The translations under genes and the position numbers were made by a program. The notes under the pieces were generated by a model. It was not told the DNA's origin. It did not search any database and saw only the letters and a list, made by a program, of their open reading frames with translations. This document shows, piece after piece, positions 18,897-22,718 of a stretch of DNA of 64,000 nucleotides (positions are counted from its first letter, which is position 1; each line of letters begins with the position of its first letter). Source of the DNA: Synechococcus sp. LTW-R (lineage in GTDB: Bacteria > Cyanobacteriota > Cyanobacteriia > PCC-6307 > Cyanobiaceae); the NCBI RefSeq assembly GCF_014217875.1, contig NZ_CP059060.1:434001-498000 (forward strand), given 5' to 3'.

Positions 18897-18924
18897 GACA
18901 ACGAATCTCATCAAGGTCGTTGTC
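18897..18924. other. Perfect 8-bp inverted repeat between the lipase-like gene and the next gene
   Basis: GACAACGA at 18897-18904 and TCGTTGTC at 18917-18924 form a hairpin with a 12-base loop directly after the lipase-like stop codon. There is no T-tract. It marks the boundary between the folB-side gene run and the unusual membrane cassette that starts at 18972, so it could be a weak terminator or an operator. Confidence 0.4.
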
Positions 18925-18971: not shown

Positions 18972-19676
18972 ATGTGCTTTTCAGCCTCGGCCAGTTTTAC
19001 GGCGTCAGCGGTGTTGATGCCGTTGGGGCTCTACAGCACCCACGTCGCGCAGAAGACGGGCAAACGTGACTACGTGCCCTTGGCCTTGGTGCCCTTTTTC
19101 TTCGGGGTCCAACAGTTCGTTGAAGGCTTGGAGTGGACCGCGATTGATCAAGGTGGCGTGGAGCCCTTGAGCACATTGGCGGGATTGGGCTTCCTCTTTT
19201 TCGCCTATTGCTTCTGGATGATCTGGATCCCATGGAGCGCCTGGTCGATTAGTCGAACGACCGATTCCAAGGGGCTGCAGAGACGCCTGCGTTGGGTGGC
19301 GATTGTGGCAACGGTCCTCGGTGTTGCCTTCTATTTGCCGGTGCTCTTCAATCCCCCGGCTCTCCAGCCTGCGGTCCATAGCAACGGTCGCTTGCTCTAT
19401 GACGTGTCCAACCTGCACAGCATCATTCACAATTTTGTGAACACAGAGCCCGTCGGTGAGCTGGTCTATTGGGGCTTCATTGTTCTCCCCCTGATCGCTG
19501 TCGCAGATAAGGCGGTGAAGCTGTTTGGTGTTCTGATCTTTGTCTCGATCTTCCTGACCTGGCTGACCTACAGCGCCACCTTCAATTCGGTCTGGTGTTT
19601 CTATTGCGCTGTGCTCTCGATCTATGTGATCTGGATTGTGAATCGACCGGCCTTGCGCGCTGCATCGGGCCAGTAG
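18972..19676 (+). CDS. Multipass membrane protein, MCFSASASF family (DUF6629-like)
   Basis: 234 residues with about seven membrane segments. The first residues MCFSASASFTASAVLMPLGLYS match the distinctive start of small membrane proteins annotated as DUF6629. Other marks are GVQQFVEGLEWTAID after the second segment, WMIWIPWSAWSI in the third, and VWCFYCAVLSIYVIWIV at the end. Membrane-side residues FFFGVQQFVEGLEW are strongly conserved-looking. Function is unknown. It opens a three-gene set with a 19-base gap to the next gene. Confidence 0.75.
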   Translation: MCFSASASFTASAVLMPLGLYSTHVAQKTGKRDYVPLALVPFFFGVQQFVEGLEWTAIDQGGVEPLSTLAGLGFLFFAYCFWMIWIPWSAWSISRTTDSKGLQRRLRWVAIVATVLGVAFYLPVLFNPPALQPAVHSNGRLLYDVSNLHSIIHNFVNTEPVGELVYWGFIVLPLIAVADKAVKLFGVLIFVSIFLTWLTYSATFNSVWCFYCAVLSIYVIWIVNRPALRAASGQ

Positions 19677-19695
19677 ATCCAGGGGAGGTCTCGGC

Positions 19696-20244
19696 ATGGA
19701 GATCCAAACAGCACTGGACGCGCTCGGTGGCTGGCTGGTTCAAACCGACATCGGCTTGGGTCTGCTGCTGCTGGTGGGACTTTCCATGTCCCTCTCCCAT
19801 GTCTTCACGCTCCTGGCCAATCGTCTCAATCGCCGCCAAATCATCGTCCATTTGATCCTTGATGGCCTGATGCTTTCGGTTGCGTTTCTCTTGAGCAGCA
19901 GCATCGATATGGTCCTGCTCGCCACCAGTGCCAGCGTGACGATCCACCCCAGTGATTTCATCAATGGGGTCGCTATTTGTTTACTCCCGGCGGTCTTTTA
20001 TCTGTTGGTGGCTGCTCCCTATGTCGGTGAGACCATCGGCTTGGGCATCTGGGTGTTGATGCATCTCAACGTCATCACCCTGTTGCATGCTCGCTTCGCG
20101 TTGCCCTACGGCGAAGCTCTTCTCCTGGCGACCCCGGGCTATGTCGTGGCCGTCCTGTTGGTCTGGCTGCTGTTTCGCCAGGGCTGGCAGGCGGGCTACA
20201 GCACCTTGGCGTCCCAACTCTCCGATGCCCACGGGTCTGAGTGA
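19696..20244 (+). CDS. Five-helix membrane protein, function unknown
   Basis: 182 residues with five predicted membrane helices (about 17-40, 48-75, 88-108, 113-135, 143-162). DVIL-type charged residues are rare inside them. A short basic loop LANRLNRRQIIVH lies between helices 1 and 2. The arrangement resembles Yip1-like integral membrane domains, but I see no diagnostic motif. Its stop overlaps the start of the following hydrolase-like gene (ATGA), so the two products are probably made together. Confidence 0.7.
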   Translation: MEIQTALDALGGWLVQTDIGLGLLLLVGLSMSLSHVFTLLANRLNRRQIIVHLILDGLMLSVAFLLSSSIDMVLLATSASVTIHPSDFINGVAICLLPAVFYLLVAAPYVGETIGLGIWVLMHLNVITLLHARFALPYGEALLLATPGYVVAVLLVWLLFRQGWQAGYSTLASQLSDAHGSE

Positions 20245-21353
20245 TGCAGAAACGCTCCCAGGCCAATTGCGCGGCCATCCAGGCGCAGCAACACAGTCTT
20301 CGCTCCCGCTTGGGCTTCATCGTCCTCGTTTTGGCGGTGGGTCTGGGGGTCAGTTGGTTTGGTGTGGGCCATGTTCTGTTGGCCCTGCGTTCGATCTTTG
20401 ACTGGACGGACATCAACCTGCTGCTGCGTTGGTCCGGCCTGTTGCTGTTGGTGCTCATCCCGACGGCCGGGATCTACTCCTTAGTGACGCAGTTTGCGTT
20501 TTGGGAAGGCTGGCTGGATGGGCTCCCCGACCCCACGGCCCTCTTCCCCGATTCAGCTCCCATCAGCGAGCACAGCTGTTTTGTGGTCTATCTCGATGGC
20601 ATCCATCAATTGGAGCGGGATCACCCGCCCAGGGTCTCGGCCTTTCTTGGACTGCTGGATCAGCAGCTAAATCCCGGTACGCGACTCGTGAAGGGCTTAG
20701 AGGCGTACACCGTTCTTCCCGTCGCCCTCGCGCAGGACATCGGTAGTGCCTGGTTCTGGCGCCGTTTATTTGCACTCCAGGAGGACCACCCCAACGGTTG
20801 GATTCAGCTGATCGCCGCTGTGCTGGTTCAGGCGAACAACGTGATCAAGGTCGGGATCTCATCGGACCACCGCTATGGGCCGATCATGAACTACGAGCTC
20901 TCACTGAAGATTGCCTTGCGCTTAGGCGAGGTCGGGTTCCGGCCGGATCAAGGGCAGAGGGTTGTGCTTGTGGGCTACAGCGGGGGGGCTGAGATGGCAA
21001 TGGGGGTGGCGGATTACCTGCGCCGCATCTGCAGGGCCCCGGTGAGCATCGTGAGCTTCTGCGGTGTCTTTAGCGGCAACCAACTCCTGAACCAGCTCTC
21101 GAAGATCACCATGATCATTGGCAGCCGTGATCCGGTGGCGGCCTTTGGTCGCATTGCCTATCCGGGGCGATCGCCGTTGCTTCCCCTCTCCAACTGGAAT
21201 CGAGCCCTCAAGCACTCCTGCATCGAACGCCGTGAAATCAAAGGGATGAACCACAACGGTCTTCAGGGTCCCTTCGCCGAGCTGCATCGCGAGGCCGTTG
21301 TCGAGCAGATCGTCCAGGCGATCGAGTCAGAGGACGCGGGCACGTTGGGTTAG
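20241..21353 (+). CDS. Membrane-anchored alpha/beta-hydrolase-like protein
   Basis: 370 residues. Two N-terminal membrane segments (about 25-48 and 62-86) are followed by a hydrolase-like domain. It holds VVYLDGIHQLE, a nucleophile elbow VLVGYSGGAEMAMG (Ser near residue 246), an acidic loop IIGSRDPVAAFG and a histidine in KGMNHNGLQGPF. The order Ser-Asp-His fits a working triad. The middle part (NPGTRLVKGLEAYTVLPVALA) is unlike common lipases. It is coupled to the upstream five-helix gene and overlaps the convergent gene on the minus strand by 27 bases. Substrate unknown. Confidence 0.7.
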   Translation: MMQKRSQANCAAIQAQQHSLRSRLGFIVLVLAVGLGVSWFGVGHVLLALRSIFDWTDINLLLRWSGLLLLVLIPTAGIYSLVTQFAFWEGWLDGLPDPTALFPDSAPISEHSCFVVYLDGIHQLERDHPPRVSAFLGLLDQQLNPGTRLVKGLEAYTVLPVALAQDIGSAWFWRRLFALQEDHPNGWIQLIAAVLVQANNVIKVGISSDHRYGPIMNYELSLKIALRLGEVGFRPDQGQRVVLVGYSGGAEMAMGVADYLRRICRAPVSIVSFCGVFSGNQLLNQLSKITMIIGSRDPVAAFGRIAYPGRSPLLPLSNWNRALKHSCIERREIKGMNHNGLQGPFAELHREAVVEQIVQAIESEDAGTLG

Positions 21354-22718
21354 CCGGAACGGACTGCTCTCGGGTTGGCAGGCCTGAAGCCGTCGCTTGG
21401 CCTCCTTGCTGGCTTCGCCAAAACAGAAGCCATCGTGCGGCAAGTCCATGACCGCTTGGCGGTACCGCCCGAGAGCCCTCGGTTCCGCCTGCACCGCATC
21501 GGCCCTGCGCAGCAGCCGCTCGCGCCAGATGCCGCCAAGCAGGCAGGGGAAGAGATCGCAGCGGCCCTCCAGGGCCTGTTGCAAGAGCGCTGAGCTGTCG
21601 ATGCAGAACCCCAACGCGCCATAGCCCCCCAGCCAGAGGCCATCGGCGTCGCTTTCCTGGTTGTGGATCAGCGCCACCAGATCGCAGAGATCCATCACCT
21701 CAAGGAGACGTTCCCCCTCATACGCCTCCCCCAGGTAGCGGACCGTTCCATTGCGGCTGTCGTTCTGCCAAGGACGCTGCAGGTCGTTCAGCGCTTCCCA
21801 ACCGCAGAGGCCCTCCGTGCCTTGGTAGTACTGCAGCCGCAGTAGTTCTGCTCCCTTGCGCCATTCCAGCTCGAGGCAGCTGTGGGGCAGGAGGCTTTGA
21901 ACCTCCTCGCCAGTCTCCCCAAGCAGACCCGTACGGATCGGAAGGGCCAGGGGGATCTGACTCCAGTTCGGATCTGAAGGCTCCGCTCCGGGGAGGCTGG
22001 CACCGAGCCCGAAGCTGGCCACGCTGGCCCGCAACTGAGCCCGCAAGCTCCAGCCGCTGTCTTGCAACTGGGCGAACCAGGCGCGGCAGCTGCTGGCTCC
22101 ATCGATCCGCCAGGGCGCGCCTCCCAGTCCGTTCGCCGAGAGCCGATTCAGGACACGGGCGGCCAGGGCGTTGCGTTGCCGTTCCCCTGGGGATTGCTCA
22201 TGGCGGAGCCCGACGTTGTGCCAGATCAGCCCACCGCTCAGGGGGCCGGCTTCGGCGTCTAGCGCGGGCTCCGGTTCGGCTGGGGTGGGATCGAGCCGCA
22301 GGAGTTCCTCCAAGCGGGTGGGGAGCGAGCCGTCTGCTCTCCCCCGCCAATGCCCGATCGCTCCGTCCCCCTCCGGTAAGAAGTGGGGCAGGGCATCGGC
22401 CACGGCTGCGAGCAGGGCCGGAGTTAGCAGTTCACGTTCGATGAGCCCACCCAGGGATTGCAGCCGCTGGGGTAGGTCCGCCGGCGCCAGCTTCCATCCC
22501 TTGGGCAGGAGCCAGAGCAGCGGCAGTAATTGGGGTTTGTGCAGCTGTTGGGCCAAGCGTTTGAGCCAGTCCGCTCGGGTTAAGCCCGCGCGAAAAACGC
22601 TCTGCTCAAGGGCCTCCTCAAAGGCGAGCAGTGGAACGGAGCAAGACCAGTTCGGATCCAGCTGCAGCGGATCGGCATGGGACAAGCGGGGAGAGACTCC
22701 AGCCATGTCACGGCCCAT
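21327..22718 (-). CDS. Conserved-looking hypothetical protein (463 aa)
   Basis: A large soluble protein with no signal peptide, many Leu, Trp and Arg residues, and no motif I can name. Segments that look structured are PLLWLLPKGWKLAPADLPQR, GLIWHNVGLRHEQSPGERQR, and the C-terminal GYGALGFCIDSSALLQQALE followed by RRADAVQAEPRALGRYRQA. It follows the M3 oligopeptidase gene by 26 bases on the same strand and is probably co-transcribed with it. Start at 22718 gives MGRDMAGVS; the ATG four codons later is an alternative. Confidence 0.7.
   Translation of the reverse strand: MGRDMAGVSPRLSHADPLQLDPNWSCSVPLLAFEEALEQSVFRAGLTRADWLKRLAQQLHKPQLLPLLWLLPKGWKLAPADLPQRLQSLGGLIERELLTPALLAAVADALPHFLPEGDGAIGHWRGRADGSLPTRLEELLRLDPTPAEPEPALDAEAGPLSGGLIWHNVGLRHEQSPGERQRNALAARVLNRLSANGLGGAPWRIDGASSCRAWFAQLQDSGWSLRAQLRASVASFGLGASLPGAEPSDPNWSQIPLALPIRTGLLGETGEEVQSLLPHSCLELEWRKGAELLRLQYYQGTEGLCGWEALNDLQRPWQNDSRNGTVRYLGEAYEGERLLEVMDLCDLVALIHNQESDADGLWLGGYGALGFCIDSSALLQQALEGRCDLFPCLLGGIWRERLLRRADAVQAEPRALGRYRQAVMDLPHDGFCFGEASKEAKRRLQACQPESSPFRLTQRARVL

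Follow-up and report, generated by a model that had tools for sequence, protein, structure and literature searches.

Organization of the locus

The window, by which we mean the whole stretch of 64,000 nucleotides analysed here, spans positions 434001-498000 of the 2.42-Mb single-contig genome of Synechococcus sp. LTW-R, a member of the picocyanobacterial family that also contains Cyanobium and Prochlorococcus. Four genes lie between the lipase gene lip and prlC, namely g1, g2 and g3 on the forward strand and g463 on the opposite strand (Table 1). The three forward open reading frames are as described in the initial annotation: a DUF6629 multipass protein, a five-helix protein (about five hydrophobic peaks in its sequence), and a protein with two N-terminal helices and the motifs GYSGGAE, GSRDPV and MNHNG. 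The same annotation had counted the 463-aa gene among the flanks; this gene vanishes along with g1-g3, and the block thus comprises four genes. All four are under purifying selection (dN/dS 0.03-0.17).

The g2/g3 junction, reported initially as ATGA, reads GTGA (4-base overlap) or TGATG (1 base), depending on which of the two candidate start codons of g3 is used. Across the loci compared, the spacing is -4 in 20 of 38 cases and at most 30 bp in every intact pair, and from the gene overlap g2 and g3 are predicted to be translationally coupled.

By the Pfam family cutoff, g1 belongs to DUF6629 (44.6 bits against a gathering cutoff of 27). In this freshwater-type genome it shares 83-87% identity with its counterparts on eight marine Synechococcus contigs (L196, L197, L200-L205), and g3 of the same blocks shares only 50-58%. 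No Pfam family was matched by g2 or g463. The AlphaFold2 (AF2) model of g463 is confident (pLDDT 80.9, pTM 0.86), and its fold search against the PDB returned no match. Sequence searches of the PDB with g3 and g463 gave nothing useful.

Table 1. Features of the four-gene block and its surroundings (window coordinates)
Feature	Position	Strand	Description	Basis
g1	18972..19676	+	234-aa multipass membrane protein, DUF6629 (PF20334); putative accessory	Pfam, E 1.8e-11
g2	19696..20244	+	182-aa five-helix membrane protein, divergent Yip1-like; probable partner of g3	hhalign, adjacency
g3	20241..21353	+	370-aa membrane-anchored alpha/beta-hydrolase (predicted); start GTG 20241 or ATG 20244	AF2, Foldseek
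g463	21327..22718	-	463-aa predicted soluble protein; fourth block member; 3' end overlaps the 3' end of g3	
Ser246 codon	20979..20981	+	putative nucleophile in GYSGG; residue numbers counted from ATG 20244	invariance
Asp296 codon	21129..21131	+	putative acid in GSRDPV	invariance in 54 sequences
His337 codon	21252..21254	+	putative base in MNHNG	invariance in 54 sequences
Hairpin	18897..18924		8-bp stem, inside the lip-g1 gap; not a boundary	

Distribution of the block

Searches of same-genus genomes with tblastn revealed two states of the site. The window shares one of them with 14 other genomes: g1-g2-g3 and the opposite-strand g463 sit exactly between lip and prlC. In six others (G018, G020, G022, G024, G006 and G009) lip and prlC are direct neighbours, tail to tail. 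The association noticed at first in the window alone therefore holds among its relatives: the genes are not scattered, and the flanks are joined in genomes without the block. The lip-prlC site is filled too in the marine Synechococcus WH7803 and in Prochlorococcus MIT 0701, and in other genera the block genes cluster as well, at different sites. Cyanobium sp. FGCU6 (L149, L148) has two copies of g2-g3; next to one of them g463 stands head-to-head with g1 and is not convergent with g3, and the second pair lies alone between prlC and ndhD. Association of the block genes therefore survives rearrangement.

Of 300 genomes in the family, 54 have both a standalone g3 and g463, four have g3 without g463, and two have g463 without g3 (Fisher p = 4e-52, a value that ignores genome relatedness). 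Thus 54 of the 56 g463-positive genomes also have g3, the two remaining cases being fragments in incomplete genomes. Since g3 is present without g463 in G074, G159 and G299, g463 is not essential to the core. g1 accompanies g3 in 48 of 58 genomes. The tightest link is that of g2 and g3: g2 is located directly 5' of every standalone g3 whose contig reaches upstream, and no standalone-type g2 was found without g3 among the 300 genomes.

The predicted membrane-anchored hydrolase

The AF2 model of g3 (pLDDT 83.8) shows an alpha/beta-hydrolase fold, and every Foldseek match in the PDB up to E 1e-3 is to an alpha/beta-hydrolase. The top match is the thioesterase SulM (8w2d, E 2.8e-4), and many lipases, esterases and thioesterases follow, with low TM-scores. 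Ser246 is placed in a nucleophile elbow, preceded by strand 239-245 and followed by helix 247-263; Asp296 comes after strand 287-293 and His337 after strand 327-332, so that the Ser/Asp/His residues suspected from the motifs follow the expected strands of a confidently predicted fold. The three residues are invariant in 54 sequences from across the Cyanobacteria (32 standalone, 17 long and 5 short relatives), and the three-helix cap (about residues 166-229) holds further invariant residues. By fold and residues together, the assignment of g3 to the serine hydrolases, as an enzyme class with predicted activity, is well supported. A basic N-terminus followed by two helices suggests that the catalytic domain is on the cytoplasmic side.

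In its fold, and in having Ser, Asp and His follow the expected strands in the usual order, g3 resembles other members of the alpha/beta-hydrolase superfamily, such as SulM, Bacillus subtilis LipA (1i6w) and the ESTS1 esterase (8ze9). It differs from them in its two N-terminal membrane helices, its distinct three-helix cap and its dedicated membrane partner, and its similarity to Pfam Abhydrolase_6 is sub-threshold only.

A probable Yip1-like partner, split, adjacent or fused

Relatives of g3 occur across the phylum in short (330-350 aa) and long (658-1292 aa) forms. Six of the 17 long relatives carry a multi-helix domain N-terminal to the hydrolase in the same polypeptide; for eight others a homologous protein is encoded immediately upstream, and four short relatives have one as a divergent neighbour. 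In total, 18 of the 22 more distant cyanobacterial relatives possess such a Yip1-like partner, and none was found adjacent to the other four (L241, L246, L251 and L253).

The g2 profile matches the N-terminal domain of the fused relatives with an hhalign probability of 96% (E 3.6e-9), and a composite profile, built from a set with one Pfam Yip1 member, with 96.5% (E 8.7e-10); reversed, column-shuffled and unrelated (g1) controls gave at most 2.6%. Compared directly with the neighbours of short relatives alone, g2 gives a weak match (20-50%). The Yip1 member of the set is L254, the direct neighbour of one short g3 relative, which passes the Pfam Yip1 model (PF04893) at 5.4e-9. Because g2 itself gives no match to that model at E up to 5, and hence does not reach the curated cutoff, we term it Yip1-like via linked profiles and not a member of Yip1. 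MreD was considered as another family for g2 and rejected (E 0.24, under the cutoff). On these profile comparisons, g2 appears as a divergent split form of the domain that is fused to the same hydrolase elsewhere. As the Yip1-like domain is fused or adjacent in 18 of 22 relatives, g2 and g3 are very probably one functional unit.

Outside the Cyanobacteria, three loci, from Sinorhizobium fredii, Microvirga and Nonomuraea, show a membrane ORF of 163-170 aa that immediately precedes the g3 relative. Its match to the composite profile is weaker (9e-8 to 1e-5 in a small ORF set; hhalign probability 79%). The g3 relative on Sinorhizobium meliloti pSymA (L255, 3698-4642) looks degraded, with the Ser motif CYGGGAQ and a lost C-terminal part; the copy in S. 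fredii NGR234 (L259) is full length.

The long cyanobacterial hydrolases of 940-1292 aa (e.g. L242, L245 and L252) share the hydrolase domain and the triad with g3, and in most of them the Yip1-like part is fused or next door. Unlike g3, most of them add a C-terminal region of about 600 aa that has no Pfam family, and g1 and g463 are not adjacent to them in the family members examined. In L242 (4865-8635), L245 (5838-9449) and L252 (5608-9486) this region has conserved GHFA and N.C.QDSNQA motifs; it is possibly a second enzymatic domain. Two same-genus genomes have, after the long hydrolase gene, a gene that by eye encodes an MscS-like channel (L058, 5576-7969, minus strand; L059, 12183-14072).

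Evolutionary history and composition

Pairwise distances of g2, g3 and g463 correlate with those of the flanking genes proA, nagK, lip, prlC and ndhD at rho 0.67-0.87, which is close to the correlation among the flanks themselves. The distances of g1 do not track the same flanks (rho 0.38-0.65), and g1 appears to have moved between genomes independently of the other block genes. Judged from pairwise distances, the simplest account of the block would be vertical inheritance combined with repeated loss and with exchange of g1.

The set had been noted as poorer in GC than its flanks and as bounded by an 8-bp inverted repeat. The first observation is correct (GC 0.586, against a mean of 0.640 and s.d. 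of 0.026 for equal windows), but GC3 (0.74-0.76) is within the flank range (0.64-0.77). Because GC3 matches the flanks, the dip reflects hydrophobic amino-acid composition, and the low GC is rejected as evidence of foreign origin. The repeat proved to be one hairpin (GACAACGA/TCGTTGTC) with no copy at the right edge; as the same 2.6 kb contains 99 inverted pairs of at least 8 nt, it bounds nothing and is discarded as an insertion boundary.

Functional interpretation

We propose that the locus is a block of g1-g2-g3 and the convergent g463, inherited mostly vertically and repeatedly lost, which would be built around a two-protein enzyme. In this proposal g3 would be a serine hydrolase anchored in the membrane through its two N-terminal helices, with the catalytic domain predicted to face the cytoplasm, and g2 would be a five-helix, Yip1-like membrane platform that positions or regulates it. 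At the cytoplasmic face, the enzyme would cleave the ester or thioester bond of a lipid or of some other acylated molecule associated with the membrane; g1 and the soluble g463 would serve as accessories. As a whole we hold this explanation with moderate confidence, and its parts deserve separate grades. That g2 and g3 form one membrane complex is very probable, and hydrolysis of an ester or thioester by that complex is likely. Membrane anchoring and the helical cap are consistent with a substrate that is a lipid of the membrane or a different acyl molecule associated with it, a proposal that could go either way, and g1 and g463 may, somewhat more probably, contribute to the same process. The original 'membrane-lipid or signal-processing unit' is an interpretation of this kind. 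Its premise that the membrane proteins and the hydrolase act together is supported for g2 only, where the natural fusions strengthen it; g1 shows looser linkage and an incongruent history.

The alpha/beta fold also spans peptidases and thioesterases, and with a thioesterase as its best fold match g3 could be a membrane-held peptidase or a protein-deacylating thioesterase, in a unit that processes proteins and not lipids. We regard this as unlikely. The neighbourhood suggests no protein substrate, and the matches, all with low TM-scores, are distributed among lipases, esterases and thioesterases, so that the fold does not discriminate between them.

It is similarly doubtful that the four genes are mere neighbours at a permissive site, with only g2 and g3 linked and no function shared by all. 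Several features fit this explanation: the distances of g1 are out of step with those of the remaining block genes, distant g1 homologues occur alone in many block-less genomes, and g2-g3 is found without g1 and g463 in several genomes. However, g463 co-occurs almost completely with g3, and the cluster stays together at other sites and in another order (L149), which argues against mere neighbourhood.

In a third explanation, g463 would correspond, as a separated piece, to the C-terminal region that the long hydrolases carry, taken as a permuted papain-like Cys/His domain; the block would then be one large protein divided into three. Inspection by eye shows, in g463 and in that region alike, a strand that bears a His and a helix that opens with a Cys (PHS... 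and GFCIDS; GHFAYG... and NNCAQDS), and helix 372-384 of the g463 model starts at Cys372. This alignment of motifs is not matched by the profiles: the profile-profile score, 11.2, falls short of what shuffled controls can reach (26.2 at best), the hhalign probability is 0.1-0.6%, and the relationship was rejected as highly improbable.

Although the block is variably present at one site, as a horizontally acquired island or defence cassette might be, such an origin is very unlikely and largely refuted: GC3 is as in the flanks, the distances of g2, g3 and g463 track them, and no PADLOC, phage or viral-contig relatives were found (no PADLOC family for the four proteins at E up to 0.1). In PHROG, g3 had one weak match, an endolysin family (64 residues, E 0.007), which was taken as generic hydrolase similarity.

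Novelty and significance of the hydrolase pairing

Yip1-type proteins are familiar from eukaryotic membrane traffic. To our knowledge, little function has been assigned to the bacterial versions, and pairing with a serine hydrolase, together with natural fusion, offers a testable biochemical partner for bacterial Yip1-like proteins. The fold and the enzyme class of g3 are already known; the new element is the recurrent pairing of this hydrolase with a Yip1-like protein. Among open-licence papers, none was found that names DUF6629, pairs 'Yip1 domain' with cyanobacteria, joins 'YIP1 family protein' with hydrolase and operon, or describes the g2-g3 pair or the four-gene block; one paper (PMC11237479) refers to the Yip1 clan only in a comparison with another domain.

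More speculatively, the Yip1-like platform and anchored serine hydrolase, in split, adjacent or fused form, might represent an undescribed and widespread class of bacterial membrane enzymes, to which marine and freshwater picocyanobacteria would have added DUF6629 and a soluble protein of new fold; the resulting four-gene unit would act on membrane lipids or acylated molecules and remodel them. The results frame four genes without known role in ecologically important picocyanobacteria, including marine Synechococcus WH7803 and RCC307 and Prochlorococcus MIT 0701, and strains that naturally possess or lack the block allow comparison. In one marine Synechococcus genome (G271; L160, 8294-8827) the block is decayed: g1 is lost, of g2 and g3 a single 178-aa ORF is left as a remnant, and g463 is intact.
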